Assembly: GCA_017506865.1 (NCBI GenBank)
Contig: JAFCMP010000523.1
Span: 620,001-684,000, forward strand
Direction: 5' to 3'
Length of the DNA stretch: 64,000 nt
From: Tribonema minus
Lineage: Eukaryota; Sar; Xanthophyceae; Tribonematales; Tribonemataceae
The translations under genes and the position numbers were made by a program. Positions 3,656 through 49,100 of the stretch are shown here, piece by piece. Below the pieces are notes generated by a model. It saw only the letters and a list, made by a program, of their open reading frames with translations. It was not told where the DNA came from and did not search any database. Position 1 is the first letter of the stretch; every line of letters begins with the position of its first letter.

Positions 3656-6822
<3,167 letters not shown>

Positions 6823-7221: not shown

Positions 7222-10200
7222 TCAGCGCCGGTACACGCGCTTGTACAGCGACTGAAGCTTGTGGTATCTGTCGCTCAGCGCGGCGCTCGCTATGGAGTCC
7301 CCGCCATCACCAACAGCAGCCCCCTCCGAGACCGACGCATTGCTTGGATCTCTGTTGGCGACGTGGACAGCTGCTGGTTGTTGCGACGCCGGAGCGTCAC
7401 CCGGCGGTGCGTGTCGCAACTTGAACTTCGTACTTGCACCGCGTTTACTACTGCTGGAACTACTGCTGCTGCTACTAGGAGGAGGCGACGGCGGCTCAAG
7501 GTTTCGTTTGCGATTGCGATGCTGCCGTTGCTGCTGTCGCGGCTGTGGCAGCGGCGGCGGCGGTGATGGCGGCAGCGCACGAGGCGGCGGCGGCGGAGGG
7601 GCGGGGGTCGGTCTACGCGCGATGCGCGCCGCCGCGCTTTCGAGTTTCCAGCTCCGCAGCGCCCTGCTCGCAATATCGTCCTTTTGGGGGGCAGGGCATG
7701 CGTGGATCAAGGGGACATGAGTAATGTCAGGCTGTTGGCATTGTGGAATTTCAATGTCAATGATGTCAGTACGGTGCGGCAGCAATATGAAGGGCACCAA
7801 ACTTCCAGGAAGATGACTTGTGAGTCGCTCGTGATACTTTTCATGAAGCTGACATGCTGCCTGGCACAAGCAGCTTTGTGTGGAAGCACACTGGCTCTCC
7901 ACACAGGTCGAGGAGAATCTGCAGGCAGCGTGCGGGCAAGAACAGTAACCAGTGCATGTGTGCAGTTACGCAGTGCTCTCTTTGCGGCGTGCGTATGTTG
8001 CGAGCCCTTTCGCGGCGCTACACACATCAAGGTTTGCCCAAGTTGTGCAATGTGCAACTGCTGTTGTTGCCATCCACATGTTAGAATGTGACAGACTGCC
8101 ATCGTGAGCAGATCCAGGTTGACGTGATCTCAGACAATGCGTACAGTATGTACAATTATATACACGCATGCATGGCAGGCACTTCTAGTCATGCATGCAG
8201 TCGCGGTACCTGCATTTTGATACAATGGCAGTGTCATGCCTCGTGAATGACTAGACAGTTCATGTGGTGAGTCATATACACAGCACACGCACCCATGATA
8301 TGATTTCATCCCAGAAGCACGGACCATAAACATCCGGACCAAGCCAGTGAAGTGAGTGACTTGCGCAGTATACGACATGTGTTCAAGGCATTGCCATGCA
8401 GCTAATGGCACAGGCAAGTTGGTCAATGAACATCGCTCACCCCGCGCTTAGGCCTATGGTTGATAACTCAGGTATGTCACTATTATAGTGAGGTTATGAT
8501 ACAGCGCTCACCGCGCAGCGAGGGCTAGGTGAGGGTATAGGGTATGATACATAGGGTATAGTATAGTGCGGTGATGATGCAGCGCTCACCGCGCGTTGAG
8601 GGCTAGGGCTAGGGTTAGGGTATGTGGTAAAGGGTATATCCATAGGTTATGAGGCAGCAGCGCTCACCGCGTGGCGCAGGTGCGTGGCCGCCGCTGCGGA
8701 GGCCAGCTCACCCTCCAGCCGAGACACCTGCAGCGTAACAGGCGCTCGGGCTCATGTATCACTTGTGCGCACGCAGCCGTATCACTTGAGTATATCTACT
8801 GGTTTTTCTGCTCAGACAGACAGGGCAAGTGCAAAGACGCCGCCTGTGCGCGGATGCTGCACATTTTGAACACACGATCAGCGCATGGGCCTGTCGCTCC
8901 GCCCCTGAGCAGGTGTGGGCGCACTCAGCATGCATTGAACCCTAATGCATACAACTCGAGTAGAAGTATGATAAATCAGGTACCTGCCGCTGCAGCGCGG
9001 CAAGCCGCAGCATGCACGCGTCGCGCTCCGCTTCGGCGCCGCCGGCGCGCAGCGACGCGTCCGCCGCCGCCGCGCGCGCACCGCCTGCCTCCGCCTCCAG
9101 CTCCGCAGCTCGTGCCGCCCAGCGCCGCGCTAGCCGCGCTGCCGCGCGTGCCTCCTTGCGCTGCTCTGCTGCCGCGCGCTTGGCCTGCGGCAGCGCGGTG
9201 TCAGCAGCGGCGCAGCAGCAGCAGCAGCAGCAGCAGCAGCGCGTCAGCAGCGGCACGCGTTGTGCGTGTGACTGCGCGCAGCAGCGGCGGCAGAGGCGCT
9301 GCGGCGCTCGCGCCGCGGTGAGCGCGCTCGTGCGCGTCAAGTGCACAGAGTACGGCACCTGAAGACCGGCAGCAGCTGTGCTGCGCCAACGTCCAACAGT
9401 ATCCCTGGGCCAGCACACTACACTAGACCGCCAAGCACATCATGCTCGCGCGCCCCCTCTTTCGCTAAGCGCCGCCGCACGCACTGTGTGTCGGTGAACC
9501 GCTGAGCCCTGCTGCACCTGTACTGCAAGCGCACGAAGTCCGCGCGGGCATTCGCCGCGCCACATCATACTGCCCATACCAACGTCACATTTTGGAATAC
9601 ATGACCATGTGTATGTGGCTACATACCTGCGCGACAGCGGCCGCGAGGCCCGTGGCGTGCGCCTCCGCTGCCTCTGCGCGCTCCTGCGCCGCGCGCAGGC
9701 TGCGCTTGAGGACAGCGCTCGCCTCGCGCCGCCGCGCCTCTGTTGCGCGCGCCTCGGTAACCTGACGCTCCGCCTCCGCTGCTCGAGCCTGCGCAACAGA
9801 GCGGCAGGGGCGGGGCGGGGGGGGGGGATGGGGGGGTGGGGTGGGGCAGCAGCGGCGGGGGGGCAGAATTGAAGTCAGCGGTCATCGTGTGATGGGGTGC
9901 GAGCCAATTCTGCATGCCAGTGGCGGCAGCTGGTGACGCTACTGCTCTTGATGCCAGCTCATATTTTTGATCAACAAAGAGTTTCAGATCTGTAAGTGCT
10001 GTGTTGAAGGCAGAACGCACCGTGGCGGCCTGGCGCTCTGCTTCCGCCTGCGCCGGTGGGGCTCAGGTTCAGGGCACTGCTCAGTGGTGTGTGAGGCGTC
10101 TGACAGCTTTTGCAGCATGCCACTTCACCAGCTACTTTTGCGCGCACCTCTCAACTTCAACTCTGATGGCAACTCTGCAAACCTCACCTCTGCTGCGGCA

Positions 10201-13200: not shown

Positions 13201-13519
13201 CCACTGGCCGTGCTGATGCTCCCAACACAGCTGGACGGTGCCCTACATACATCACACAAACAGGCGCGTTGCATCAGCACTACTCGAACTCGCAAGCGCT
13301 GGGGCCGCCGACTGGCGTTCAATGCATTTTTGATGATGATGAGTAACATAAACAGCTCAAAACAAGAAGTCAAATTCACCTGCTATCTGTGTTGGCATCC
13401 TTCTCAGCAGCGCCATGACGACTCCCGTGACGGCGAGCTTGACCAGTGTCCAGCCGGATCGTCCCAAACTCGTTCAAAAGCTCCACCAAATCATCCTCCG
13501 TATCAGTGCCATTGTGCAT
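7222..13519 (-). CDS. Large coiled-coil protein of unknown function
   Basis: Ten exons in phase: 13380..13519, 12231..13212, 11525..11617, 11023..11138, 10188..10314, 10021..10047, 9627..9788, 8984..9184, 8668..8727 and 7222..7680; 2367 nt, 788 residues. It begins MHNGTDTEDDLVELLNEFG. Residues about 50-365 are an acidic, Ser-rich then Pro/Gln/Ala-rich low-complexity region with GDSSGTDTDEEANSDE. Residues about 365-636 are an almost continuous Ala/Glu/Arg coiled coil, encoded by small exons of 27-201 nt mostly in phase 0. The tail is Pro-rich, then Ser-rich, and ends LQSLYKRVYRR. I recognise no catalytic domain; a centrosomal, basal-body or cytoskeletal scaffold is only a guess from composition. 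The long second exon and the stop are well supported; the tiny exon 10021..10047 rests on splice signals and phase. Its start lies 110 bp from a divergent gene. Confidence 0.7.
8435..8668 (-). repeat. Tandem copies of a 5' splice-site segment
   Basis: The donor of exon 8668..8727 reads GCG|gtgagcgctgc on the minus strand. The same context recurs three more times into the intron, with donor-like gtgagc ending at 8588, 8511 and 8440, so the spacing is about 71-79 bp. Between the copies lie short ggctaggg/ggtatagggt repeats resembling telomeric DNA. Confidence 0.7.
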
Positions 13520-13629
13520 GTGGCAAGCACCTCTTCAAGCAGCCAATACAGCTACCAAACCATGCGCTGACAGCACGGGCGCACCTACAGTAGTTTACGA
13601 GGCCAACCAACTGCCACATTGCTATTAAC
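13520..13629. promoter_or_regulatory. Bidirectional promoter interval, coiled-coil gene / plastid membrane protein
   Basis: The start codons at 13519 (minus) and 13630 (plus) lie 110 bp apart. The interval must serve both genes, or their transcripts begin inside each other. No TATA box or known motif is seen. Confidence 0.45.
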
Positions 13630-14439: not shown

Positions 14440-15060
14440 GGATAGCAGTGGCGTCTGGGGAGGCAAGCACATGCCACTGACCTTAATGCCTGTTGTTTAC
14501 CGTTGTAAGGTGTGCAAAGTGAGGCAGTTTTGATACAGATAAGCATGCAGCATCAGCAGCAGCAGCAGAACCCGCCTTTGGCAGGACTCATCAGTGTACG
14601 TGCACAGTGCGTTCAAAATCCTCGAGGTGCGCCACAGATGCATGGCATGCCACAACAGCTTGCGCATGTGAGCACAGGAAGCAATGCTTCGAATATACAA
14701 AATTCAATTGCTGTCCTCACTGTCTCCCTACTGTGCTCTTTGCCGTACCAACGACAGGTACTAGTAGAAACAATAACTCTGCAGCACTGCACTGCGCACC
14801 AAAACTGCGCCCACGTGCGTGCAAAAAACAACGCGCGGACACTTCAGCCTCGCGGACACTTCAGCCTCGTGACATGCAATGACCTCAAAGACAGCGTCAC
14901 TGATGCCGTAGGGAACAACAGCTGTAGGACGGCTAATGAGGCGCCAGAAGGGCCCTCACTGCACTCAACGTAGGGGAGCAGGACATTGTGCTGATCTTGA
15001 CGGTGCCGGTGGTGTTAGGCGACCCTTGTTGCGTGCTTGCCTTCCCGTATGCTCGTCGCC
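14440..15060. other. Convergent intergenic spacer
   Basis: Lies between the stops of the plastid membrane protein and the C2-WW gene. There is a near-exact direct repeat of an 18-nt unit around 14838..14870 (gcggacacttcagcctc twice). No exon is seen. Confidence 0.5.
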
Positions 15061-17927
15061 TCATTGCGGCCGATCCCAATGCGTGGTCTGCGTGTTGTGA
15101 TCAATATAGAACCTGTGAGCGAGCGGGGCGGCGCAGGCGCAGGAAATGGTCAACTGCATGCAAGTAGAACAGGGGCCGTAGCGACCAAGGCTTGACTCAA
15201 TTCGCCAGACACCAGCAGTGCGAGTTTGCTGCGTGGGCCTGTATACTTGACGCGCAAGTGACAATAGCCTTGTGACCATTAGTTGACGCACAGATCGCAG
15301 ATAGGCAACACTGCAGACGCAACAGCTGCGTTAGCGACAACAAGCGGCGGCACTGCACCAGCACTGCCGCGGCGGTCACATGCAGTGTGCGCCCCTCTTT
15401 CGCAGCTGTGCAACGCATGCACTGTGCAGTAAATTGCCTGCGCATGTCGCTGGTCCAGCAGGGCCCTGGACCACAACTGGCCAAGCCCCAGACAACGCTG
15501 TGCACACCATTCAAGAAAGCAGGACTTACTTTCTGCCTTTAGGATCCGTCTGCTCCTCCCATCCCGGTGGCAGCGGCGACGGCTGTGGCAGCGGCGACGG
15601 CTGTTCGCCGCCGTTTAAGTTGCCTGCTGACGTGTAGCGCGCCTCTGCAAGGCACGGCGGCGGGATGTAGTGTAAGAGCCGTGATGCAAGCACTGCCAAG
15701 TCACCAGCGGCTGACGTCGCATGCAGGGCGCAAGTGTTCGCGCCAAGTGCGTCGACAAGCACTGTTGGCGGACTGCCAGTGGCATTCACAGTGCACTGCG
15801 CGTTTCTGAAAGCAAACGCAAAACTACGCACTGTTTCGCCATAAACAAGTGACTTTGCCAGAGCCGTGACTGCGCGCACCTGCCCATGCGGTGCGTGACG
15901 CTGCTGATGGGTGCTGCTGCTGGAGCTGGTGCTGCGGCTCCTGTTGCTGCTGCTGCGGCAGCTGCTGCAGGAGCTGCTGCTGCAAGTGCTGCTGCAGCGG
16001 CTGCTGCTGCTGCTGCTGCTGGTGCTGCTGCTGCTGCTGCGGCTCCGGACCTGAGATCCACCGCCCCTGCAGGTCGTAGTACGGCTTGAACGGTGTGGCG
16101 CCGCCGTCTTGCTGAGGCGTTGCCAGATGACCATTCCCAGTCGCCAATTGATGCGGCTGATAAGCTGCTGATGCTGCTGCTGCCGCTGCTGCTTCGGCTG
16201 GTGATACCCGCGAGAAACCATACGTGCCAGTAGCTGATTGATGCGGCCGATCAGCTGCTAGTGCTGATGCAGCCTCTGCCGCTCTAGCTGGTGGCGCCCG
16301 TGCGAACCCATAGATCCCAGGAGCCGATTGATGCGGCTGATCAGCTGCTGGTGCTGCTTCAGCCGCTGCCGCTCTAACTGGTGGCGTCCGTGCGAACCCA
16401 TATGACTGCCGCGGTGCGGCGTCAACGTGCTGCTGCTGCGAGCGCTGCTGCGAGCGCTGCGCAGGCGTCGGCAGCGCCGCCGTCTGGCTCGAGGCGAAGC
16501 GCATTCCCGACCCTATGCCGTCAGTGCCAGCCGGTGCTGCTGCTGCGGTGGCAGCTGGTGACACATTGCCATCTAGCTTCATAACGAGGTGCACTGCGCC
16601 GGCCGAGCGCCCCTTGGCGTCGTAGATTTCGTGCCACTGATCTAGTGTCTGCAGTACACAGGCAGCAAGGCGTGTGGCGCGCCGTGAGACGCTGAATGAT
16701 GCCAGGATCAAATGGGCAAGTCTCCTGTAGACTCAGTCATGAAAAGTTCAGTAGGATGCCCGCTGCTGGCTCACAACACGAGGCCCATCTGTTGCCATTG
16801 GTCAGATTGAAGTACAGCTGCTTCTTCCTGCATGCACGCCAGTTCCATATGGAGCACGATAGTACAAAACCTTCAGCAATACATGAGGTGGGGCACGCAC
16901 TTTCAGTTGAGAGTGCAGCGCGTGCGCGCTAAAGCTCCTTGCAGCGCAGCTGTGCTCACCGCATTCGCCGGCACACTTGCGATGGGCCACTTGCCGCAGC
17001 CAATGCTCGCCGAGCTCATGATGTTCTTGTCCGCCACCTCAAAGTATATGAAGTCCCCCATGACTGCCCCCACGTCAAAGACGAAACGCTGATTCCACAC
17101 TGCGCTCGAGCCGCCATCAGTGTGCACCTGCAGTTAGGCAGCAGCGTCATAGATGCCGTACGTTTTGTGGGCTCAACGCAATTAGCATCGCTTCTGTGAG
17201 CGAAATGTCGAGTGAGATGCTAGTTTTGTGGATGCTTTTAGTGTGCGCAATTCCAATGTGGCAAGGGCACCAAGTGAGGCACAGTGCATACAGGTGTATG
17301 CAGGCACCATTTCTTGGCTTGAACAGCTTGAATGAAGCATGCTTTTGGTGTGCGCAATTCCAATGTGGCAAGGGCACCAAGTGAGGCACAGTGCATACAG
17401 GTGTATGCAGGCACCATTTCTTGGCTTGAACAGCTTGAATGAAGCGGGCCATGTGTCCAATGTGTTGAAAAGTGCCCCACCAGAGTGAAGCTACCAGTGC
17501 AGCCCGCTTCGCAGAGGCCCAGCTATGACGCATCCTGCATGCATACCAGCAGATCAGTTTTGCTGGTCAAACAGCTCCTTGCAACGTATCATCGCCGCTA
17601 CTTGCAGAGTGCTCCCTACAAAGTTCCAGCACAATGCATTGCTGATTGGCACACACCTTCGTTCTAAGCACATCGCCTCCGCTCCCAGCCCACAGCTTGA
17701 GATATGGGTCCTGCGTACCGATCTGAGAAAGGAGCACAAGCGAGCGTGATTAGAGAGACAATACGAGGGTGACCACGACCACGGAGAATTAGGAATTATG
17801 CGTGCCAAACACGCAGCTGACATGCATTAGTTTCAAGGCAACCTGACGCCGACTCCACGCTTACCAGCTGAACTTTCTTGAGCTGGCGGGCCCCTCTGGC
17901 CTCGACAACTAGATAGGTTGTGCTCAT
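15061..17927 (-). CDS. C2 domain plus C-terminal WW domain protein
   Basis: Six exons in phase: 17865..17927, 17657..17722, 16960..17127, 15880..16648, 15530..15830 and 15061..15112; 1419 nt, 472 residues. A C2 domain fills residues 1 to about 123: TTYLVVEARGARQLKK, GTQDPYLKLW with the Asp expected of a calcium-binding loop, VWNQRFVFDV, and VHLVMKLDG at its end. Next comes a low-complexity region with three degenerate repeats of about 30 residues (core YGFARxPPxRAA...PHQSA) and a poly-Gln/Ala stretch. The last 31 residues are a WW domain with both tryptophans (LPPGWEEQ and THWDRPQ), joined across an intron as AGAAA|G. Known C2 domains bind phospholipids or proteins and WW domains bind Pro-rich peptides, so it is probably an adaptor; no HECT ligase follows. 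The 49-nt intron 15831..15879 is unusually short. Its start is divergent from the PCIF1-like gene. Confidence 0.82.
17233..17445. repeat. Two-copy tandem repeat, 107-bp unit, in an intron
   Basis: Two almost identical copies sit head to tail in the second intron of the C2-WW gene. The start of gtgtgcgcaattcc recurs at 17241 and 17348. Few differences are visible, so the duplication looks recent. Confidence 0.9.
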
Positions 17928-18248: not shown

Positions 18249-19829
18249 ATGGAGAAGCGGCTGAGAGGAGACGATGAGCTGGACATGTTGTTGGCAAGCA
18301 TGGAGGGTGACGAGACACCAACAAACCAGAGCGATGACGGTGGTTCAGCAGCTCCAACGTTGGGGGTTGCGGGAGAGCAACACACGCAGCGCGCTGAGCC
18401 CGAGAGGGGATGGAACAAAGCGGTCTGGAATGCTGGCGTGTGCAAGCCAGAGGATGCCATTGCTGCTGCGATGCCCGATAGGGTGGCCATGCAGACCACA
18501 CCGCAGGTACGCTTTCAAACAGCTGTATACGGCCCCCAGTCTTCGCAGCATTGAGCAGCGCAACTTTATGTCTGGACAGTATGCCACGGGTGTTGAAGCC
18601 CTGACCAACTAAGCGCTTTTATACTTTTTACTGGAGAGATTGCCGTGTACAACCTGCAATGCCTGCTGCTGGTGTCATGTTAGCACAGCTTTCTAGTTTG
18701 TTGACCCATTAGTGATGCGCAACAATACCATGAACCGAGGATTGTCGACACATGCAGCCAGGATATATGTGGATGACCACCCGCGTTGGCATCAGGTTGA
18801 GAGGCTCTGAAGTGTTGGCACTGCAGCCAAAAATCATTTACACCTCGCACAGCTCAAATCAGCACTGTCCCAACCATGCAGTGCTATTCAACATTTCTGC
18901 GGCAAGTTTGCATAACTGCCCAGCCCCGTTATACTGTGCCGGTGAGAAGTTTTGGCAATAACTTGTTGTTCAGCCTGGGCATGCTGATGTTCGGCTCTTG
19001 CACTGCTGATAAACATGGTGTGCCTGGCATCGCAAATAGTATTGCATTGTGCTGCTCCATCGTTCTTGGCTCTTGACCCTGAAGCAGTACATGTATGGAT
19101 GCATGAAGTCATCCCATCACTGCTGCAAGTGGCATTTATGGTACTCAATCATTATGGAAGTCTAACTGTACCCCACATGAGCAGCAGCAAGTGTTATCCG
19201 TCAATCAGGGCCCAACAAGACGGGCTGCAGACTGAAGGCCCGCAGGACAGGCTGGAACTCCCCCCCACCCACCCCCTGCATTCCGCTGCCACACTCCACG
19301 ATAGCTCGAGCGCACGTCTTGTACACAGTGCCTGGCATGATAAGCCAAGTCCTGGCCACCAAGCTGCGCAGCATACAACAATGGTCCACAACCCACTTGC
19401 CAATCAGACAGCGCTGCTCCGCGTGTGCCCGCCCGGCAACGCACCCGCTCCCCCTAAAGCCCCCGCTCACACACCGCCCACGCCCGCGTTCATGTACATA
19501 CACATTTACTTCTATGCGCCTCGCAGGTGGAGTGTCTGCGGCAGCAGGCCCTCACCGTGCTGCGCGCGCGCTTCGCCGCACTCACCACGGAGCTCGGCGT
19601 GCGCGTCAAGAACGACGTCTTCGAGAAGTGGCAGTTCGGCCAGAAGGCGCGCGAGCGCGCGACGGATGGCGCGCTGCCCGGCGACGATCCGCTGCTGCCG
19701 CGCGGCGCGTTTCGCGACGGCACCCTCGTCGCAGCGCTGGAGGCCGCGGGGGCGGACGGCGCGCAGGCGCACGTGGCGGTGCGCGAGCTCGGGCGCGCGG
19801 CACGCGCCGCGCTGCAGGTGCGCGGGGCG

Positions 19830-19860
<31 letters not shown>

Positions 19861-22800
19861 AGCTGCAGCTGCTGCTGCTGCAGCTGCAGCTGCTGCTGCT
19901 GCCGCTGACGCGCTCTCGATGTTGTGGTGGATGATGGCACACGGCGGATGTAATCTTGTAGCGACGCTGTTGGTTATACGCCATGCGCTCGGAGTGCGTG
20001 GCAGGCATATGATGGTGGTAACCGCAGCGATGCCGAGTTGTGCTGCACCAGTGGCAATTCCTTTTGTGCTGATAAGGACTGTTGGTGGTGGTATGCAGAT
20101 CTACTGGTGTGCCTGGCGTACATACGCTCGTCCTGATTCGCACACAACAAAGGCTGATGCAGATACTGCAGGAGGCACGGGTCTGGCAGTTGCCTCAGCG
20201 CGCACTTTGACCGTTGACCGCGTGGTCAATGCTGCAGAATGAAGTTGAAGTTGAAGCTGAAGAGCTGAAGCCGAAGTGAAGTGGTTGGTCTGTGCACACC
20301 CGCAGCAGCTCGCTGCCATTGTGCGATGCAACAGTACGCGGTGAGCCTCTAGTCGGTGTTGCGTATCTTGCAGCGCTGAGGGCCTGTTTGACCCTCTCCT
20401 TGACCCTGTATCACCCTCTTTCCGCGGGACAACTTGTGCATGCCGCCGCTGCCCCGCACTGCGCCTCGATGCTGTCATCACAGTGCCCAATGCCAGCGCC
20501 GCCTGCGCACACACCGAAGTGACACGCGCTGCACGACTTGCACACGAACCGCTCCCTCTGCGACACATTGTCGCCGCAGCGACTTGACTGTACATTGAAC
20601 GGCCGCTGCTGCCGTACATGCTAAACCCTCGTGTCTCCGCGCGCGCTGGCGCCACCACCCCCTTCCGCACCGCCGGCCAGGTTTTCAACAAGCAGCTGCG
20701 CACGCTGCCGCCGTCGCGGCGGCACGCGACGGCGGCGCGCGTCGACGCCGACACGTACTGCGTGTCCTACGGCCGCCACCGCCTGCGCGTCAACTCGGCG
20801 CACTATGACAAGCTGCGCGCGCTGCACGCCGCGCACGGCAGCAGCAGCGCCCAGCGGCAGCGCAGCAGCGGCAGCAGCGGCGGCGGCGCGCGCGCCGCGG
20901 CGCCCTTCCACGACGCGCTCTTCGCGCTGCTGCTGCGCTACGAGTCGCTCGCCGGCGGCGGCTTCCAGGCGGCGGCGCCCGGCGACGTCTTCGACGTGCT
21001 GCTGCGGCGCTTCGGCGCGGACATGGAGTGCTTCGCGTCGCCGCTCAACGCGCGCTACGCGCGCCACTGCACAGCGTTCCCCGACACGGACGCGCCGTTC
21101 GGCGGCGCGTGCAGCTTCTTTGACTTCCGGCCCGCGTCGGGCAGCTACGAGGCGAACCCGCCCTTCGTCCCCGCGGTGAGCCCTTGAGTCCGCTTTGTGG
21201 TTACCACGCGGCACAGAATCTCACGAGGGCTGAGCGCAGCTGTCTCACTGAGCAATGCTGCCTACAGTGGTGGGTGTTACTTCAAGTATAGGAGAACACA
21301 TGCCGAGCGCTGCTGCCAGCAGCTGCTGCCCCCCCTTGCCTTCACAGCCACCACGCCCGTGCGCACATCACATGCGCCCGCGCCGCCGCCGACGCAGCAA
21401 TTCCTGAATTTTGAATTACGCAGCAGCGCACACGCGCAGCGCCTGCAGGCTCAGCACTATAGACTACCCTCATTCACAGCTTGATTCATTATTTAAATGT
21501 AAAAAAAATGAGCGCAAAGTGCCGAGCGCTGCTGCCCCCCCCCCCCCCCCCGGCGCCGCGCATGCAGGTCATGGACATGATGACGGAGCACATGAACGCG
21601 CTGCTGCGCGCCGCCGCCGCGGCCGGCGCCGCGCTCATGTTCACGGTCATCGTGCCGGCGTGGGAACACGAGGCCTCGTGGCGGCGCCTCGCGCGCAGCC
21701 CGCACGCGCAGCGCCGCCGCCTGCTGCTGGCGCAGCGCGACCACGGCTACTGCGAGGGGCGGCAGCAGCTGCGGCGCACGCGCTACAAGATTGCGTCGGC
21801 GCCTACGAGCGTGTTCTTTCTGCAGACGCCGGCGGCCGCCGCCAAGTGAGTGGCTCAGCGAGGTCGTGCATCATGCAGAGTGCGAGTGAGTGAGTGAGTA
21901 CAAGATTGTGTCAGCGCCGACGAGCGTGTTCTTTCTGCAGACGCCGGCGGCTGCTGCCAAGTGAGTGGCTCAGTGAGGTCGTGCATGATGCAGAGCGCGA
22001 GTGAGTGAGTCAGTGAGTGAGTGAGTGAATGAGTAGAGGCGGCTGCTCGTGCGCCACTGTGCGAAGGACGCCAGCGCCTGCGCGCAACGTCTGCAAGTTG
22101 GCGCCTGCTTCGATGTGCAGCGATGTGGGGGCATGCTTTGTGTGTGTTTTGGTCCTGGTGCAAGAGTGCTACTTCAGACTTTGAACAGCTTCATGCTACT
22201 TCAGACTTTGTGCTGCTGTTGTATGTCAGGTGGCCCGTCACCGAAGCGGCGTGCGACGAGCTGCGCGAGGCCTTCAGGCCGCGGCAGGCGGACGAAGCAG
22301 CTGGCGTCTTCGACTCCATGAGCTCAGCACCAACTTCAACTCTGCCTGCATCCGACAGTGAATCCGAACGTGCAACTGGCGCCCACGGCGCTGCTGCTAC
22401 TGTGGCTGAGCATTTTGACACCGCCAATGGCGCTGATGGTGACAGCAGTGACAGCGCTGGCAGCGGGGGGATGCGCAGCGACGTGCATGTTTTGCATAAT
22501 TCTACTGACGGCACTGCAGTGCCAGCAGCTCCGCAAGCGCAGGGTACCGGAGGCAGCGGCGGCAGTCGCAAGGGCAAGAAGCGGCAGCGCAGCGGCGCCG
22601 CAGACGCTTCTACTGCCGCCAGCGCAGCAGCGATCCGTGGTGATGCCGCCAGCGGCGGCGCCAGCAAGAAGGCAAATAAGAAACAGCGCAGAGCAGAGAC
22701 CGCCGCCGCCGCTGCAGATGGCATGCCGCATAGTGCATTGCAACCACCGTCACAGGCGGACGTGAACGTTCATCGCGGTAGCCATGCGTCAAAGAAAAGC

Positions 22801-22995
22801 AAACAACAACATACTGCTGCAGCTGCGCATGGCAGCGCCGGACATGCAGCACCATCATTAGGCGCTGGCAGCTCAACTGCTGCGGCTGAAACAACCAGGG
22901 CAGGAAAGAAACGTGCGCATGGTAAACCACACAAGCGCAACTTGAAATTGGGCAATGGCAAGGCCCAAAACGGCGCGCGTGCTCAACACAAATGA
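18249..22995 (+). CDS. PCIF1: PCIF1/CAPAM-type cap-adjacent m6Am methyltransferase
   Basis: In animals PCIF1 N6-methylates cap-adjacent 2'-O-methyladenosine in mRNA, using SAM, in the nucleus. Exons 18249..18506, 19527..19817, 20681..21175, 21568..21845 and 22230..22995 sum to 2088 nt (695 residues) in phase. The helical core begins VECLRQQALTVLRARF. The methyltransferase domain has CFASPLN, AFPDTDAPFG, then FFDFRPASGSYEANPPF; NPPF (about 342-345) is the catalytic signature of the family. MFTVIVPAWEHEASW and SVFFLQT follow as in animal PCIF1, and WPVTEAACDELREAF closes the domain. The last 230 residues are Ala/Ser-rich with several basic clusters (KGKKRQR, KKANKKQRR) that look like nuclear localisation signals. 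The N-terminal WW domain of metazoan PCIF1, which binds phosphorylated RNA polymerase II, is absent from these exons. A further small exon between 19817 and 20681 cannot be excluded. Confidence 0.87.
19832..19903. repeat. CTG/CAG trinucleotide repeat
   Basis: About 70 bp of ctg repeats, interrupted by cagctgcag units, starting 14 bp past the donor of the second PCIF1-like exon. Similar CTG/CAG runs lie inside coding exons elsewhere in the window (6590..6615, 15890..16045, 9213..9240). Confidence 0.85.
21784..22013 (+). repeat. Tandem duplication of an exon 3' end with its splice donor
   Basis: The last 62 nt of PCIF1-like exon 4, its donor (AA|gtgagt) and about 50 nt of intron are repeated once with a 115-bp offset (tacaagatt at 21784 and 21899). 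The second copy ends at an equally good donor after 21960. The intronic part is a gtga microsatellite. The coding frame is kept in both copies. Confidence 0.9.
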
Positions 22996-23904: not shown

Positions 23905-26900
23905 CTACTTCAACTCCACCTCCAGATCCGGCCACCACGCGCACTCCTGCAGCAGGCACGCGCGCGTCAGCAGCTCCGGCAGGTATGCCTTGCCGCCGCG
24001 CCCCGCGCCCGCCTCCTTACGCGCCTTGGCTGTCGTGCACACGTCCGGGTGCGCGAGCACTATGAGCGTGTCGGCGTCGCCGCCCTTGCCGCGCAGCGAA
24101 GGCGCCCACTCCGCGCCCGCGCTCTCCTGCGGCAGCAGCGGCGGCAGCGGCAGCAGCGGCGGCAGCGGCGGCGGCGCAGGCGCAGCGGGTGTTTGTCAGT
24201 ATGAGCCCGGCAGATGTAGGTGTTGTTGAAAAGGGAGGATCTGCAGTGTTTCAGTTGCGCACACTCAACGACCCCGAACAGCAATGCGCATGCAACCGCT
24301 ATACATGCGTTGCTACACATCCTCTCAGACCACCACGCACCACTTTCCGCTCCGCAACAGGTGTCGATTGCGTAGCAGACTTCACGCTTACCACTGGCAA
24401 ACACTCACAGACCTTTCAGGCCGCGTGCATGCATTCACGCCCCTCTTTTCGATCACCACGCACCACTATCTGCTTCAGCTCCGCGGCAGGGGGGCAGCGC
24501 AAGCCGCTGCGCCCCAGCATCGCCGGCAGCGCGTGCACGCGGTAGCCGGAGAGCACGCCGCCGCCTGCCGCGCGGAGCGTCGCCGCGCGCGCCAGCGCCT
24601 CCGCCAAGTTGAATTTCCACTTCTCCTCGGCATCCGCGTCCTTGACTGTGTAGGCGGCCTCCGGTGCCGGCGCCTGTGCCGGCGCAGACAGCGCGTAAGT
24701 GACGGCGATGGTGAACTGACGCCCTATGAGTTATGATTGAGCAAGTGTGCGTGGCGTGGCTATTTTTAACAACTACTCCTGAGCATTGATGGACGAGTGA
24801 GCGGCGGCGGTCGCCGCCAGCGCCGCAACCGTGTATCTGGGCCACAATCGACTTTGGCAAACGTCAGGGCGATCTGCAAGCACGTTGCCAAAGGACAGGG
24901 CGACCTGCAAGCACGACAGAGGGAGATGGGCGCTTGGCGCTGGCGAGCAATGCTGTGGCTTAAGAGCTGCTGGGTGCACAACTGGGCACATGTCGCAGCA
25001 GTGCCCAACACGAGCTTGTGCTGGTTGTTCCGCGTGCTGAACCGCCGCGAGGTGGAGCTATGGTGACATGACAATAGGGCCTTGCATTGAACGTGCGGTG
25101 CCTACACCGCAGCTACAGTCGCCCACTCGTCCAACAGCGCCACATGGCGGCTGCAGGAGCTCGCCAGCTTTTGCTTGCATCGTACACATCATCACCCGCG
25201 CCCCCGCAGCAAACACAACCCCCCCACCTCGAGTCACAGATATACAGCTCCTGACACGTTGCTGTCGACAGCAAACTCCAATGCACCGTCGCCGTTCTCC
25301 TCATGCCACATCCACCAACATGCGCGCCTCTCAATACACATGTGTACCTTGCGCTTGCCGCTGGCCAACAGCCACTCCGGCGTCACGACGTGCGCGCACG
25401 CGCACAGCCCCGCCAGCAGCTTCGCCGTGCGCTTGAGCGGCACGGACGCGATCAAGTGCGTCGCCTCCGTCACGCTGTCCACGATCGCCACGCCCGCTTT
25501 CTTCGCCGCCGCGAGCTCCGCCGCGCCCGGCACGATCCCCGTAAAGCACACCGCTACCGGCGCCGCCGCTGCTGCCGCCGCTGCAGCATCTGCCGCTGCC
25601 GCCTGCGAAGACGGCGGCGATGCCGCCGGCGCCCGCCGGCTGCCGCCGCGCGCTGCTGCCGCGCCGGCCGGACCATCCTCCTGCGATGCCGCCGGCGCCT
25701 TTGCGGCGCTGCGAGCGCGCGCGGAAGCTGCCGGCTTGCGCTCCGGCGTCGCCGCCGCTGCTGCTGCCGCTGACGACTTCCGCCCTCGCTTGCCCGTTGG
25801 CGCTGCCAACTCCTGCGATGCCGCCGGCGCGGTGTCACCATCTGGTTCCGCCGAAGCACTCTCCGGTGCCGCCGCCGCCGCTGCATCAGACGGCGCAGGC
25901 TCTGGCGCTGCCGCTGCTGCCGCGGAAGCTGCTCGCGCTGTCCGTGCGCGCTTGCCGCCGCCGCCGCCGCCATCCTCCTGCGAAGGCGGCGGCGCCTCGG
26001 ACGCCGGAGGCGCCGCGGCAGCGTTGGCCTCCATCGCGGCGCGCGAGCGCTTGCGCCGCCCGTCGCGCCTGTCGTCCTGCTGGCTCGCGACGTCCGCGCG
26101 CGCAGGTTCCGCCTCTTCCGCCTCTGCATCGCCAGCTGCCTCCACGTGCGGCTCCGGCTCAGGCGCGGGAGCGTCCGCGTCTGCGCGTGCGCGCTTCTTG
26201 CGCCTGCCGCCGCCGTGCGCCTCAGCAGTGCTCAGCTCATCCGCCACACGGCCCTCCGCCGCCTCTGCCGGCTGCTGCTGCAGCTGCTGCGCTGGCGCCG
26301 CGGCGCTCTCCATCGCGGCACGCGATCGCTTGCGCCTGCCGCCGCCCGCGGGCTCGGCCTTCCCTCCCTCAGCATCAGCTGCAGGCTCCACGGTAGCAGT
26401 TTCCGGGTGCTGCTGCTGCTCTGCTGGGCTGTGCACTGCGGCCGCGCCGGCGTGCTCCTCTGCTGCGGCGCCGCCGGCAGCTTCAGCGGGGGCTGAGGCC
26501 GCCTCCACCGCAGGCGCTGGTGATTCCTCCTTGGCCTTCCGCCCTCTGCGTTTGCTGTGTGCAGCACCACCGCCTTCAGGCGGTGCCGCGTCCTGCTCTG
26601 CTGCGCCTGCGGCAGGACCCCCAGCATCTGCTGCTGCGCTGTCCGCACCCCCCTCTGCTGCGGCCGCGGCACCATCCTCCTCTGCTGCAGCAGCTGCAGC
26701 CTTGCCCCTCTGCCTGCGGCCTCGCTTGTTGCTGCCGGCGCCGCCGTTGCCGTCCTCCGCCGCCGCAGCAGACGCTGCTGGCGCCTCCTCTTGACCTTCA
26801 CCAGCCGCATCAGTGGCGGCAGCAGCCGGTGCTGCGGCGTCATCAGTGCTCAGCACCTCTGCTGCAGCAGTGCTCCGTGGCTTGCGCCCCTTGCGTGCAG

Positions 26901-29900: not shown

Positions 29901-30159
29901 CGTGCACTGTGCCGCCTTCAGAACCCAGGTCTTTGACGACAATCCGCACCCCGAGCTCTGTCCTGACGACGTCGATGAAGGCGTGCGAGCTGGCCACTCC
30001 AGCGCCAGCGGAGAGTTTGATATCGTTGCCGGGGGCAGAGCCCACAGTGTTCTCTCTCTCGTACAGGTTATACTGACTGTCGGTGGAGTCTCCTCCATCG
30101 TCGAGAATCTGCATGACACCCACAATCATGTCGTCTGGTGCTGAATCAGCCACAGACAT
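23905..30159 (-). CDS. MDC1-like DNA-damage mediator: FHA, long repeat region, tandem BRCT
   Basis: Exons 25348..30159, 24464..24673 and 23905..24126; 5244 nt, 1747 residues, all phase 0. An FHA-like domain lies at about residues 20-115. The tandem BRCT is at the C-terminus: first repeat VCFTGIVPG...LKRTAKLLAGL...TPEWLLASG, a linker EEKWKFNLAEALARA closely resembling human MDC1, then LSGYRVHAL...ELKQIV and TLIVLAHPDV in the second. Thr of FTG, and Arg and Lys of KRTAK, match the residues with which MDC1 holds the phosphorylated H2AX tail. The roughly 1400-residue middle is Ala/Glu-rich, with about 16 to 20 basic patches of RGRK/KRSR type every 40-80 residues and many SQ/TQ sites. Inferred role: chromatin-bound checkpoint mediator. 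The start at 30159 is chosen because the FHA domain follows; the frame stays open up to an ATG at 30438. Confidence 0.83.
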
Positions 30160-40138: not shown

Positions 40139-43100
40139 TCACCAAAGCCAGCTTCTTGAGACTGAGCTGGAGATATGTGCAGTCGCTGAACGAGTCCGAG
40201 CTGACGATATACGACCATGCACGCGCCTGGAGCTAGCAAACCCCTGCAATGCGCGCGCACCTGTTGGTTTGTAGGGCTTCTTTGCCGGCACGGGCGACAC
40301 CGAACGTGAACACGAGGATCGCTTGCCGTCGCCGCCATTGCCATTGCCTTCGTCAATTGCATCAGCGCCATCGCCTTCCGCTTCGTTGCCGTGCTGTTTG
40401 GCGTCAGTGCTCCACTGTCTGCACCCCACGGAGTCGGTTGCGGCGGCGGCATTCATGCAACAGCGAAGTGAGCAGGGCTTGTTGATGCACCTGCTTGCTA
40501 TCCTCAAGGTACGAAGCAGCAGATGATTAATGCAATATGCGAGGGACCCGGTGCAAACTCGGTTCTCTTGCTGTAGAATGACAGCGTACACAGGGCTTAC
40601 TTGCAGTGTTGTCGTTACTCATGATTTTGGCATTGAGATGAGCTTACCAAAGCTGTATTGGGCTATGGACCAGCTCCAGAGCTGGGTCCAGCACTTGCCG
40701 TGACAAACTGGACACCGCACGGAGCAATTAAGCACTTCAAGATAGCAAATACATATAGATAGATGTCGCTACTGTGCCGCTCACTCAACGTGTGGACAAA
40801 CGCCGCCACTCAAGCACCATTACATCTGACACCTCGACCTTGCAAGCGCATTGGGTCCAAGACCCATACAGTATACATAAATACTGTAGTACCTGTACGG
40901 ATCCACGAGCGCCAGCACGTGCGCAGCAGCGGCATCCGCCAATCCGCTCCTGTCCAGTGTCTGCACATCCCTGCCCGCTGCCATCTCCCCCTGAAACTGG
41001 TACCCCCTGGGCACCTTGTCCCCCTCGCGGTCCTGGAGTGTGCGGTAAGACAGGCATGAATGCGTAGCAGCGCGTTTCGGTGACATCACTGCAGCTGTAG
41101 CTGACGGGTTTGCCAGCACATGCCATATGAATGTAGCTAGGGTAAGGAGTGTAGACAGAGGGATGTAAGCCGCAAGCACGGTGCCGTAACACTGCTACCG
41201 TCGAACACCTTTTCCTCTTTTTTGTGCCCATGTGTATACATCTAGACTATAGCGCAGGTGATGTGTATGCCATGTGACTCCCCCTTGTCACCCATGCTAG
41301 CCCTTAAGCCCTTCATCCACAGCTCCTAGAAACGCCGCCGCCACTGCCGAGCACTGCTGCCATTGGCGACGAGGACGATATCACTGCAGGCACACCCCCA
41401 ACGTCTGCGCAAAGCACATAAACCTCATGTGCCTCTGTACGACAACCCCAAACCTCAACATGAACATCAACCTCATACAAAACATAAACATACCTCCATC
41501 GGCTTGTCACCCCCCTCATCATCCGTGGTAGTGGGAGAGTCCGTGCTCTGCAGCTCCCGCAGCGCCGCCGTCGCCGACGACGAAAAGGAGGCCGCCACCG
41601 CTGGCGCCGTTGCGGATGCCGTTGCAACGCGCGAGTGGCGGCGGTCGTCAGGGGGGTCCAGATGGGGCCTGCCGTAGCCTCCCTCAAGAACGGAGACTAG
41701 CCTGCGTGTGCATCAAAATAGCAAGCATTGAGCAACGCAGCTAATGTCCACGGGCAATGCAGTGCTTTACGTGCGTGCTGAATGCGTGAACCTGGTGCAC
41801 TGAGGGCGTGAGAGAGCACGATACCCGAGCGCATGCCGACAGTGATTGGCCGCGCACAATCACATCATCTCCTGTGTAGTTCAATGAAGTACTTAAAGTA
41901 TAACATGGGGAAGTTGCAGTAGGCACGTCACCCACCTCCCATCGCAGCACATGTCCGCCACCTCCTGAATACGCTCCGTGATCCAGGCATAGTCTGCGGG
42001 CGTGAGGTCCGTGCCCGCGCACTTGCCGCGTGCGTGCCGAGCGTTGCCAACGTCTCCCTCCACCGCGTCAAAGCCGCTGCTCATGAGGATGAGCTGCGGG
42101 TTAAAGGCGCGCAGCGTGGGCAGCAGGCGTGCCATGATGGCCTCGCGCCAGCTGCCGCGCCCGGCCGCCGCCGCCGCCGATGCTGCTGCCGCCTGGAAAG
42201 CGGGCAAAATTGGGGTTGTGGCTCAAAATACCCTTGCGCATGCACCTTAGGGTGGGCCGCCCCCACTGGAGGACATGCTCACGCTAGGTCCACATTTGCT
42301 GCACCGATAACATATGCTTCTAAGCAAGACAACAGTAACAAAGCAGGACAGTATGCCCCCCCCCCACTGCAGCTGAGCTGACCGTGGGGTGAGTGCTGTG
42401 TCATCATGTCACTCACTGCTAAAACGTTGTACAAATGCACCCTGCTACACAGTACAAATGCGTCGCCACACCACAGGAGCGGTATGACGGCAAATCACAT
42501 CGATACACGGTCATCCCATACAGCATGCCAGAAACACATTAATAAGGGCTTTACCTGAGCGCTGCGCGTCTTGGTCGAGCGCCCCCCCCTGGAGCGCCAG
42601 AGCGGCTGAACGGGCGCGTTGATGATGTTGAGCGCTGTATCATCAACAGAGCCGCTGCCGGGGAAGAACTGGTACGAGTACGACTCTGACTCGTCCGACT
42701 TGCCGTCCCCCCCCTCCTTGTCGAAGAGGTGGATGGAGTAGAAGAGCAGCTTGGAGGGCTGGCAGTACGCGCGCACGATCTCTGCGGTGGCAAACACACG
42801 GTATACATATAGACAGTCGTTGTCAGCAGTAGGCGCACACAATCTCTGCGGTGGCACGCGGGATACCTACATACCATTGTTGTCAGCGTTCGCGCGCACG
42901 ATCTCTGCGACGGCATGCGGTATACATATATACAATCGTTGTCAGCAGTACACGTGCACGATCTCTGCAATGGCGCAATGTATACGTACATACCATCAGT
43001 GTCAGCGCAGGAGAAGGCGAGTGTGACATGGCACCTGGGCTGTCGCTGTAGAAATTCAAAAGTTGACGATCAAGGGATGTTTTACCGCCATAAGCCGTAA

Positions 43101-46100
43101 CCAAGAGAATGCATACAACAAGCAAGACACCGCGCGCAGCGCACAATTATCCCACACACTTTTAGTCTCCGGCACACCGCCGCCGCCGCCTCGAGCACTC
43201 AAACCACGCACTATCTTCCACAACAATGCTATTAGCAGGCGAGCGACGACCCCTCCCCCTCCACGACGCAGCCCTCCTCCCCCCCCCCCCTCCCGGCACC
43301 TTGACAAGGTACCATGATAGACACGCAGTCCGCTGTGCGGAGAGTCAAGTACTCCTGCTGCTCGTTCTGCTGCCACCGCTGCTGCTACTGCAAGGAGAGC
43401 GCTGTTGAGGTTTGAGCATGCAGTTCGAAGACGAGGTGCAAGCTCTCTTTGAGACGTACATGCTGTAGGTGAGAGCTTTGAAGTGTGCTAAACGCCGTGA
43501 AGCTACCCCCTCCCCTACCTTCGGTGCCGTTGCCGTGATGCACGTCCGTGTCCACAATTGCCACGCGCGCCAGACCGTGCGCCTCCAGCGCGTGCAACGC
43601 AGCGCTCAAATCATGCACTATCTTCCACAACAATGCTATTAGCAGGCGACCAACAACCCTTCCCCCTGAGCAACGTACGTACCTTCGGTGCCGTTGCCGT
43701 GGTGCACGTCCGTGTCCACGATCGCCACGCGCGCCAGCCCATGCGCCTCCAGCGCGTGCAGCGCCCCCACCGCGACATTGTTGAAGATACAGAAGCCGCA
43801 GCTCGCCGCGGCCTCCAGCAGGCCGTCGGGGCCCGCGTGGTGCCCGGGCGGGCGCACTGCGCAGAAGGCGTTGCGGTGGCGCCCCGCTAGCACGCTGTCG
43901 ACGGCGGCGACGACGGCGCCGGCGGCGCGGCGCGCGGCGCCGAGGGAGCCCGCGGAGAAGCTCGTGTCGCAGAACTGCACCGGAGGGTGTTGGCGTGTGC
44001 AACGAATAGGGCCTGAGCCTCAACATTTGATGAAATTACGTACAGAGGGGTCACAACACAAAAGTACTTTAAGGGGAATTCATTTCACTTGGAAGTGTGT
44101 ATTCAATGATCAGATATTAGTGCTTCTATTAATTGGTGCTATTCCTGCGGCACGCGGCGCCGAGGGAGCCCGCGGAAGCTCGTGTCGCAGAACTGGAAGT
44201 GCATGTCAGCGTGGGGAGTAGAGCGCAAGTCTATCAAAAATATTGGATAGAGGCTCATACGTTGTGATCATCGACGGAAACTTCACTTTGAAGTATGTGC
44301 TCGAGGCATCAGACACTTGTGCTAATGGTATTGGTGTTGTTACCGCGCATACGGCGCCAGTTCGCAAGCAAAGTCACAGAACCGCGCAAGTGTTCAGCGC
44401 AGGGACTACTCAGAGCCAGAGTCCGTATACAACTGGCCAACCGAACACGTGAGACCCTTTCATACTGAACACCCATGCCTCGAACGCTACAAGCTTGCAC
44501 ACAGAAGGCTTTTTTGACTACTGTGGATAAGGTGGCAATGTTTGACATGTGGCCAATGACTGCAGCTGCAGCAACCACGGTCATTGGTGGAAGGCACTTG
44601 CGGCTTACCACTCTTTGTCACTCCTAGCAGAGCTCTATGATCTTATGAACCTTTTTCACAGTACCCCAAAGGATATCTCAGTGATGGCATACGTGAGCTG
44701 ATAACTTTGATGTTGCTACAGCACGGCGCCAGCGGCGCGACGCGCAGCGCCGAAGTGGCCTGCTAAGGTGCTCGTAAGCGCATACGGCGCAGCGTAAACT
44801 GGCACGCTCTGTGGTTTTCGCACAGCGTCAGTGCTGCCCGTGCCGCGACAGCGTTGAAAAACGCTCCTCACCATCACCACTATCATGGGAGTGGCTGACA
44901 TCATCAGACGTCAGCGGTACCCAGTGAGCGGAGCGGGCCAGTGCTGTGTGCCCGTACAAAGAGGTGCGAGACTGGGCAGCGGCGATGAAGCTTAACAGGG
45001 TTCGACGTCACCAACCCTGCCCAGGACGGCAACTGCTTCTACGGTGAGCTGGCGCACGCTGTATCGTGGCGTACCCGTTATCATGGCCATACATACAGTA
45101 TGTATGGCAGCTGCGTGCGCTCGCTCGCCGTAGAGCAGTTGCCGTCCTGGGCAGATTTGGTGACGTCAAACCCTATTCAGCTGCATCGCCGCTGCCCGGT
45201 CTCACACCGCTTTGTACGGGCTCGCATCACTGGCCCGCTCCGCTTGCCGGGTGCCACGGACGTCTAATGTTTTTTTAGCCACTCCCGTAATAGTGGCGAG
45301 GAGCGTTTTTCAATGCTCTCGCGGCGCGGGCAGCACTGACGCTGCGTCGCAGCAGCGTGCGCACAGCCGCAGGTTGCAGGACTGCGGGAAGGGGCCAACA
45401 CTGCCCTCGGGTGCAGCTTGTGACTTGTTGAAGTGCTCAACAGCAAGCGCAGCGCGCTTGCCCTCGCAAATTAGCTACCATACGTCATGTGGTTGCGTCT
45501 CTGCTGCTTGCAGCGAGCTCGCCGCACCACACACGGTGCGGCCGGTCCGCTGCTTCAAGCACGCAAAACTTCAACTATGATGCCGCCTACGATTGCAATC
45601 ACGCGCGGCCGCGCCTTGCACGCACCCCTACACCGCAGTCACGCACCGCGATCAACTATATACTTCGAAGTACGAAATGTAAAGTAGACATAGTTCTGTA
45701 TATGTGTATGTATATAGCCTGGATCCAATTTTCACCCTAACCTCAAGCCCTTATCCTAGGGCTCACCCACCTCGTGCGGCTTCACCTCCGCCTTGCGCAT
45801 CAGGTCGCGCTGCACCATGGGCGTGAACGGCACCGCCGCCGGCGCCCCCGCCGCGCCCAGCTCCCTGCTGAGGCCGTCCACGAACTTCAAGTAGTCCGCC
45901 GTGTGCACGCGGCGCAGCGCGGCGGCGGGCGCGCGCTTGAAGTTGGTGGTGACGTCGAGCTCGTACGCGCGGAAGAGCGCGCCGCCGGTGAGGCGCTCCA
46001 TGATGGCGTCGATGCGCGCGGGGCACTCCCAGTCCGTCGCGTTGCGCGGCTGCGGTGCGCGCGCAAAGGGCAACTTCAAGTTACAACTGCAACTGTATCT

Positions 46101-49100
46101 CCACCAACAGGAACACACGGCAGATGATGGTCTGGAGGCGTATGCATTCAGGGCATCCCGTTGCGCGGCTGCGGAGCAGCAGTATGCATGCAAGGACGAG
46201 TTCGGTGGCAGACTTCACTGTGGCTAGCACATACAGGAGCACACGTCAAGCAATAGTTGGTATGCACGCAGGGCACTCCCAGTCCGTCGCGTTGCGCGGG
46301 GCTGCGGTGTGCGCGCAGGGGCAAGTTTAAAAGAGACAACTGCTATATCACCACAAACAGGAGCACATGCCAATCAATAGTTTGGCTTTGTATGCGCGCA
46401 GAGCACTCGCAGTAGGTCGCGTTGCGCGGCGGCGGGCAGCAGTGTGCGCGCAAGGACAAGTTTGGTGGCAATTTTCACTGGATTACCACATACAGGAGCA
46501 CAAGTCAACTAAAATGCTGTGTATGCGCGCAGGGCACTCCCAACCCGCGGTGTTGCGCGGCAGCGGAGCAGCAATGCGCGTACGCAGATACAAGTCCACA
46601 ATTTCTTTCTAACATCTACAGGCGGATGCGTTGGACAATCGAGCACCTAGAGCTCTATGATCTTTTGATTCGTTTTCATGTGTACATACATACCTGGTGC
46701 TCCTGGCACTCCGGGTGGTGCGCTACCAGCGTGCGCAGGCGCGGCTCGCTGGTGTAGAACGCCGCGCGCACGGCCTCGCGCGCGGCGTGCACCTCCTCTG
46801 GCGCGCTCCCCGCTAGCGCTGCCGCCGCAACTTCCAGCGGCGCGCGGCTGCGGCGGTTGCGCGCGCCGTACGCCGCGCCGCACTCCAGCAGGGCCTGGGG
46901 TACGTAGGTATGCGTGTGTGTGTTGCGGCGTGTGGTTTGGCGCTGGTACCGGGGCGCGATGCGAGGCACGGATGAGGAGTCATTGTGGTGGAGCCTGGTG
47001 CTTTCAAGTGATGAGGGGAGAATGGCGGCTGCGCGGCTGGTCTGGTGTCGTGGTGTCGGTCTGAGCCGACCAACGAATGATGTGCTCCACTGCTGCTGCC
47101 TCATTTGAGCATTAAAGTCAACGCTTCACACTTTTACCTGCTTGTTGCATGTCCCCATTCTTTCAAATATGTGTGCATCAATTGCGCACGCAGCGGCCTA
47201 CATGTGCCATGTACACATCAGAGTACACGTAAAATTGTGTACTGCACCTGTACTGCCTGCGGCCGCGCCCACATGGACGCGAAGTGCAGCGGCGTGTCCC
47301 CATCATTGTTGGGCGCGCTCAGCGCTGCCCCGTGCTGCATCAACGTGTACACATTAAGTACACTTAAGATCGTGTGTACCGCACCTGCACTGCCTGCGGC
47401 CGCGCCCACATGGACGCAAAGTGCAGCGGCGTGTCCCCGTCATTGTTGGGCGCGCTGAGCGCTGCCCCGTACTGCATCAGCAGCCGGATCACGCCGGGGT
47501 TGCCGGCGAACGCCGCCCAGTGCACGGCGGAGTTGCGCGTCTGGTCCAGCAGCGCGACGGACGCGCTGGCGCGCAGCAGCGCTCTGCGATAATTGATTCA
47601 TGAAAGTGAAAGCGTGTGAGGGTCAGCGCTCTGCGATCATTCATTCACGAATGCTGCGCGTCCGGTCCAGCAGCGCGACGGACGCGCAGCGCTCTGCGAT
47701 CATTCATTCATGAAAGTGCAAGTCAGCGCTCTGCGATCATTCATTGATGAGAGTTGCGCATCTGGTCCAGCAGCGCGACGGACGCGCCGGCGCGCAGCAG
47801 CGCTCTGCGATCATTCGTTCATGAACGTGAAAGCCTTGGAGAGTCAGCGCTCTGCGATCATTCATTCATGAACGTGAAAGCCTATGAGAGTCAGTGCGTC
47901 AGCGCGCAGCAGCGCTCTTCAATGAAAGTGAAAGCGCGTGAGAGGCAGCGCTCTGCGATCATTCATGCGTGAAAGTGAAAACCTCGGAGAGTCAGTAAGC
48001 CAGCGTGCAGCAGCGCTCTGCGATCATTCATTCATGAAATTGAAAGCGTGTGAGAGTCACCGCCCTACGATCATTAATGCACGAAAGTAAAAGCCTTAGT
48101 TAGTCAGTAAGCTGGCGCAAAGCAGCGCTCTGCAATCATTCATTCCCGAAAGTGAACGCCTTGGAGAATCAGCGCTCTGCGATCTTCCATTCGTGAGAGT
48201 GAAAGCCTAGGAGAGTGAAAGCAGTGCGGGGGGCAGGTACTCCGCAAGCAAATGGGGAGGTTGCAGATTAAGAGCGGGCGTTTTGGCGCAACTGAAGCTC
48301 TCTCCACACCTCAGACTCTTTGCAATCGACAGTGCCGGTGGTTATTAAGCCTGGCGCAGCATGCTTTCGCTGGCATGTGGTATTTATGAACTGACCAGGA
48401 TTATTTATGAACTGACCAGGGTACTGCAACTCGGCACACAGGCTTAAGTATGTTACTTCTATGAAGAATGCCGGCATGCCTGTGTTACCAGAGAACAGCT
48501 CGAACAGTGTGTTGCCATCTCTTACTGAATGTGAGCATATAGGTATGCACTGTTCTAGCAGCACTGACCACACTCCAACAAATGATTGCCAATAGGGCGT
48601 GCCATGACACACAATGTGGCCACAGCTGCAGCAGCATGTACTCACGTGCAGATGGCGGCAGGCATGTCGCCGTGGCGCATGACGTCGAGGCTTGCCGCGC
48701 ACATGAGGGGCGAGAAGCCGTAACTGCAAAGGGCACGGCGCGCGTGACAAACGATCAGCAAAGCGCAGTACGCTGAAGCACTGCGTGATGTATTGTCTGA
48801 AAGGCATGGCACGCATGAGAAATGAAGAGCAAAGTGCTTTTCGCGGAAGCATTGTACGCCGTTCATTGTCCAACGGCGGCCGCTTTCATGTCTGCTCCGC
48901 CCAATGGTCGTGATGGGGTCATGCGATGGCGCTTGGGCAATGCAGACAGCGGCGAACGGTGCGCGTGAACGAGATGGTCAAGTGACACTTCAACGGGGAG
49001 GCGCACAAGGTCGCAGTTCAACTTCATGATACTGCGCCGCTTCGTGTGCATGTCATGTCATTGTGGTGTGCATCGCCTGATTCAACTTCAAGATACAACT

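Follow-up and report, generated by a model that had tools for sequence, protein, structure and literature searches.

Few events can be observed that bear on the unsettled question of how introns lengthen and how new splice sites arise, and the closest described cases involve tandem duplication within genes. In the potato RdRp gene, an intron was gained through tandem duplication of an intron-exon border; the accessible part of that report describes a single case in which the duplicated segment takes in the acceptor, the branch site and part of the exon, giving a new intron and a new exon (PMC4974935). In the model of Rogers, as set out in the accessible parts of two sources, tandem duplication of exonic DNA carrying AGGT proto-splice sites supplies the splice sites of a new intron (PMC2891723, PMC4974935). 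Internal tandem repeats at exon-intron boundaries, with 27 intron modifications, have been reported for recently duplicated human paralogs, and the accessible text states no excess at borders over chance (PMC2812944). In rice, tandem and partly tandem duplications have been ascribed to patch-mediated repair of breaks, through asymmetric nicks and end joining, and the part of the review available to us describes them without a splice-border preference (Vaughn and Bennetzen 2014, as described in PMC7407515). Here, we report segments straddling splice borders that have been copied, mostly in tandem, into the adjacent introns of Tribonema minus, starting from a 64-kb stretch of contig JAFCMP010000523.1 (positions 620001-684000, G+C 0.589; hereafter the window) of a 158-Mb assembly in 554 contigs.

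The arrays share features with each of these systems, as far as the accessible parts of the sources allow the comparison. As in potato, a tandem duplication takes in a splice site together with part of the exon; unlike the single potato event, the copies here appear hidden within an old intron, occur at many borders, are often multi-copy and involve donors as frequently as acceptors (19 arrays of each). As in the Rogers model, an internal gene duplication supplies splice sites, but it is an existing border that is duplicated: the units straddle that border instead of providing both ends of a new intron from an exonic AGGT segment, and a protein alignment for one of the genes (PCIF1-like) reveals no extra exon. 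The location of the repeats at exon borders, affecting introns, is shared with the human paralogs, and the tandem arrangement with the rice duplications. Single border duplications are known from potato and human paralogs; a genome in which they reach such a frequency was not encountered within the literature searched. Border-centred arrays are not described among the literature matches listed, most subscription journals lying outside that coverage, and go unmentioned in the accessible parts of two algal genome papers (PMC8226300, PMC7617258).

In the window, 17 copies straddling eight exon borders of three genes lie in the adjacent introns, between positions 8435 and 48215. This confirms the observation of an earlier note on this DNA, which had described at least eight such cases in a coiled-coil, a PCIF1-like and an HDAC gene, with the qualification that the coiled-coil array only adjoins its border. 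The copies were re-found with border-straddling probes, the probe lengths being set by hand for each border, and each of the 17 counted copies outscores all 100 base-shuffled versions of its own region. The splice dinucleotide (GT or AG) is kept in 15 of the 17, both losses falling at acceptor 46049. Several independent units were recovered (~60, ~78, 115, 124-131, 136-137, 164 and 47/101/112 bp), and Tandem Repeats Finder (TRF) independently lists arrays of 78, 115, 59/60, 131 and 47/101/112 bp.

The PCIF1-like gene (18249-22995, plus strand; Pfam PF12237, E 1.4e-49), with hand-assembled exons at 18249-18506, 19527-19817, 20681-21175, 21568-21845 and 22230-22995, carries a 115-bp tandem duplication (21784-22014, plus strand) across donor 21845 of its fourth listed exon. 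Its unit consists of 62 bp of exon and 53 bp of intron, and the one intronic copy (21916-22000) retains GT at 93% identity. Since the alignment of PDB chain 6irv_A to the predicted protein is gapless across 21845|22230, this copy is extra.

The ankyrin and histone deacetylase (HDAC) gene lies on the minus strand (40893-49710; PF12796 and PF00850, E 3.6e-63) and has ten predicted exons, its outer limits being provisional; all of its arrays are on the same strand. An array of about four ~60-bp units (42762-43006) runs across acceptor 42781 of exon 42555-42781 and provides three intronic copies, all with AG. Both borders of exon 43683-43974 have been copied: donor 43682 once (43494-43764), at an offset of 164 bp that is not strictly tandem, with an 82-bp exon part and GT intact, and acceptor 43974 once as a dispersed copy (44150-44205), 83% identical with AG intact. 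A ~124-131-bp array (46012-46595) crosses acceptor 46049 of exon 45771-46049, with three intronic copies of which one keeps AG. The ankyrin exon 47385-47583 has arrays at both ends, namely a 136-137-bp tandem duplication across donor 47384 (47210-47479; one copy, 95-bp exon part, GT intact) and a higher-order array of 47/101/112-bp units across acceptor 47583 (47530-48216; five intronic copies, AG in all). An ankyrin-chain alignment is gapless across the junction at 47384, and the gene's own HDAC matches are table-level PDB hits. In the third gene, a putative coiled-coil gene so labelled in the earlier note, a minus-strand array with a ~78-bp unit (8477-8671) abuts donor 8667 of exon 8668-8727 and contains two GT-bearing copies (8477-8522 and 8550-8600).

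Two 100-kb blocks chosen blind, C1 (C1:1000001-1100000) and C112, were tested together with the window (the main blocks), and an additional held-out sample comprised 40 kb with few confident exons. Exon borders were taken from a gene model self-trained on the main blocks, and so derive from sequence and not from RNA. A first model was dropped for calling too many tiny exons. A second permitted GC donors and called pseudo-exons, intronic border copies taken for exons, of which 37 were removed from one 100-kb block, a warning for annotation. A third, GT-only model left the array-level result unchanged; copy-level counts and unit geometry are still based on the borders of the GC-permitting model, at least one of which (a C1 donor around block position 4066) seems by eye to be ~13 bp off. 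Gapped self-blast with a complexity filter found 62 local tandem arrays, of which 59 were kept for a circular-shift test (arrays >60% exonic dropped) and 57 for an intron test (mostly exonic or multi-border arrays dropped). An array was scored as a border array where it covers a splice border by at least 8 bp on each side and as young where identity is at least 85%, copies below 62% identity being uncounted.

With the GT-only model, 41 of 59 arrays in the main blocks cover a border, against a mean of 19.9 and a maximum of 34 in 2000 circular shifts, so the border preference beyond repeat density that had been proposed holds in the examined blocks. An array edge lies 8-110 bp inside an exon for 41 arrays (shift mean 7.4, maximum 27). 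The excess is found in the window (6/9 arrays, shift mean 2.3, P 0.0155), which was itself chosen for the feature, as well as in the blindly chosen C1 (29/38, shift mean 14.4, P 0.001) and C112 (6/12, shift mean 3.1, P 0.0325), and when the window is dropped and the held-out 40 kb added, 37 of 61 arrays are on a border (shift mean 19.0, maximum 31).

This concentration might also be a survivor effect, in which duplication is uniform along genes, exonic duplications are purged, and those at borders persist and stay recognisable through the selected exon. We consider this a strong rival and quite possibly the correct account. Introns here are short relative to the unit, such that ~19-21 border hits among 57 intron arrays are expected regardless; under a null that places one unit uniformly in the pre-expansion intron, two runs gave 21.5 and 18.9. 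The observed 41/57 is above this expectation, and the excess persists in the subset of introns whose two flanks are well scored (23/33 versus 15.6 expected, P 0.0026). Further, all seven young intronic arrays of the main blocks are on a border versus 2.5 expected, in a class where detection bias is small; two further young arrays are extra-intronic. Among the non-border intron arrays, 6/16 sit within 9 bp of a border.

The anatomy of the units is similarly restricted. In the 38 single-border arrays that make up the geometry set, the period has a median of 134.5 bp (range 64-199) and the exon part a median of 58 bp (range 13-107), with a standard deviation of 21.7 versus 37.4 for uniform placement (Kolmogorov-Smirnov P 2e-4). 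Exon parts longer than 80 bp occur in 4 of the 38 versus 36% expected, a depletion that argues against the survivor effect, though selection could cause it.

Both TRF and self-blast find medium-length units in tandem arrays, as in minisatellites, and one might suppose that ordinary minisatellites, growing by replication slippage or unequal exchange, simply happen to reach borders. Multi-copy higher-order arrays such as that at 47530-48216 would suit such growth, as would the derivation of some copies from other copies. The junctions do not: all 18 two-copy arrays (14 border, 4 non-border) have an overlap of 2 bp or less, and the nine readable junctions, tandem to within 6 bp, have at most 2 bp of microhomology. 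Placement is also not border-independent in the main blocks, where the excess described above is at odds with slippage, while in the held-out sample it is indistinguishable from border-independent. Slippage therefore appears improbable as the source of these arrays. Adjacent direct copies of tens to hundreds of base pairs and microhomology of no more than 2 bp are, on the other hand, two of the features expected of repair at staggered breaks or paired nicks.

Introners occur in some green algae, and insertion of introners, transposons or reverse-spliced introns would be another source of repeated intronic DNA. Genome searches with three window arrays, in which very common words were skipped by the tool, found no mobile family: the arrays at acceptors 46049 and 47583 each have a single place, and the PCIF1 array matches elsewhere mainly through a GAGT-rich stretch. 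Among the three arrays searched, there is thus no single family spread across many introns, and the units combine exon and intron DNA in tandem; together, these observations leave insertion with a very slim chance. Of the processes that the earlier note had put forward, staggered-break repair fits best, while slippage is disfavoured by the junctions and reverse splicing by tandem units that hold exon and intron DNA together and by the locus-unique placement of two of the three arrays. An assembly or haplotype artefact is equally hard to credit; the note had named artefactual arrays as a possible outcome, but the counted copies are 62-94% identical, not 100%, many of them with indels, which is not what simple assembly error would give.

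The copies themselves, 87 intronic ones from 39 arrays, were compared; three of the 42 border arrays were excluded from the splice-site counts. Among acceptor copies, 40 of 49 retain AG; among donor copies, 24 of 38 retain GT and nine more read GC. The exon-derived 40 bp is undeleted and stop-free in 58 of the 87. At the border, mismatch rises stepwise from ~0.16 on the exon side to 0.27-0.30 on the intron side, average divergence being 0.136 in the exon-derived versus 0.277 in the intron-derived half, and deletion runs per 3045 columns number 39 versus 76. Such patterns could be read as selection of splice-site arrays for alternative or more robust splicing, the intact dinucleotides and stop-free exon parts speaking for this. 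The intact counts, though, are roughly those of neutral decay at ~0.16 mismatch per base, and periods are multiples of three in only 13/38 arrays (hand count), the chance level, making selection for splicing highly improbable. We looked for coding constraint in codon positions and deletion runs and found none that is clear. The step at the border resembles constraint but need not be constraint, because copy-copy mismatch differs only slightly among codon positions 1, 2 and 3 (.206,.188 and.247) and single-base deletions account for 27 of the 39 runs in the exon-derived half. A simple account is that selection holds the exon constant while intronic copies drift. The survivor effect draws support from the same data, the exon-derived half being about half as diverged and having half the deletion runs, as if only the intronic copy drifts.

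The order of the copies within arrays is informative about growth. Of 23 untied arrays, 17 have a border-nearest copy that is closer to the exon than the farthest one (P 0.035), and the nearest copy is the most exon-like of all in 15 of 25. The star ratio is 0.85 (0.79-0.93) for codon positions 1 and 2, 0.77 (0.72-0.82) for all exon-half sites and 0.66 for third positions; simulations gave 1.0 for growth from the border only and 0.70-0.82 where any unit may duplicate. The similarity gradient and the star ratio lean towards repeated duplication at the border itself, and this leaning towards the border as template, in combination with the border excess, suggests that borders are preferred sites of duplication.

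We therefore propose that, in parts of this genome, splice borders undergo recurrent tandem duplication through end joining, with the copies tolerated in introns, a reading to which we assign a probability of roughly 0.45. Short duplications, blunt readable junctions and locus-specific units would match fill-in at a staggered break or paired nicks followed by end joining. A staggered break or a pair of nicks would flank the exon-intron edge, and the ends would be filled in and joined without homology, such that ~60 bp of exon end, the splice site and ~75 bp of intron are copied beside the original, in duplications of ~60-200 bp. The original splice site would still serve and the extra copy would be concealed in the intron and, for that reason, tolerated; selection would thus account for the intronic position of the copies. 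Were the same border struck repeatedly, older, decaying copies would accumulate deeper in the intron.

Duplication intensity is regional, and the suggestion of the earlier note that such arrays may form genome-wide is not established, the blocks ranging from hot (C1) to nearly cold (C112) and the held-out 40 kb being non-significant by itself. When exon ends without their splice consensus were compared with their own introns, low-complexity ends being excluded, a significant exon-end copy was present at 30/55 borders in C1, 5/32 in the window and 4/59 in C112, against 5/146 in a reverse-complement control. At array-free borders, old hidden copies were detected at 11/33 borders in C1 versus 1.1 expected and at 3/30 in the window, with none in excess in C112 (1/53 versus 1.7 expected). 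C1 has 38 kept arrays per 100 kb and C112 has 12; proteins predicted in C1 include a myosin head, an AMP-binding enzyme and a patatin-like domain (Pfam).

Several observations weigh against recurrent duplication at borders, beginning with this strong heterogeneity. In the held-out 40 kb, where most exon calls are weak, 2 of 11 arrays are on a border (shift mean 1.5, P 0.473), so that this sample alone does not replicate the effect, and the border excess is non-significant there in four tests (P 0.15-0.48). None of its four young arrays covers a called border, a result that favours the survivor effect, although one abuts an exon end; over all samples pooled, 7 of 13 young arrays are on a border. 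A position-based test of repeat coverage at borders against intron interiors gave only a 1.5-1.8-fold border excess overall, and in C1, at the strictest exon cut-off (seven introns), its interval includes 1. The intron annotation comes from a home-made gene model, and border copies are more easily detected, the exon being conserved. Spacers or lost ends (9-79 bp) make the junction unreadable in 9 of the 18 two-copy arrays. The star ratio lies below 1, so some copies were made from copies, and copy-copy divergence in the intron-derived half (0.376) is above either simulation, perhaps through misalignment.

If borders are indeed preferred sites, splice borders may be where DNA breaks and is then patched with duplications. 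A stronger version would have the active splice border itself make the break, a process coupled to transcription or splicing, or to exon-edge chromatin, producing nucleosome-sized duplications anchored on the functional site; introns would then grow outward from exon edges, in some regions intensely, as decaying border copies are carried away in one direction. We regard this version as rather unlikely. A region rich in border duplications at many stages of decay would expose the mutation step and allow borders to be tested as mutational hotspots.

Other repeats were seen alongside these arrays. A 107-bp tandem duplication in the window (17231-17445), 99% identical with a blunt junction, is a very recent event of a similar general kind, outside called exons and off called borders. 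In block C1 (positions 79483-80396), a 258-bp unit is duplicated along with whole called exons, at ~94-96% identity, and C544:500001-510000 contains six tandem arrays in 10 kb, one of which is on a called border, in a region of mostly weak exon calls. A long HDAC intron holds a putative inverted repeat, seen by eye at ~45003-45170, with a stretch reminiscent of an OTU-protease motif; it is perhaps a mobile-element remnant. On the minus strand of the window, a single exon of 4.6 kb, G+C-rich and skewed, is predicted at 25348-29989.

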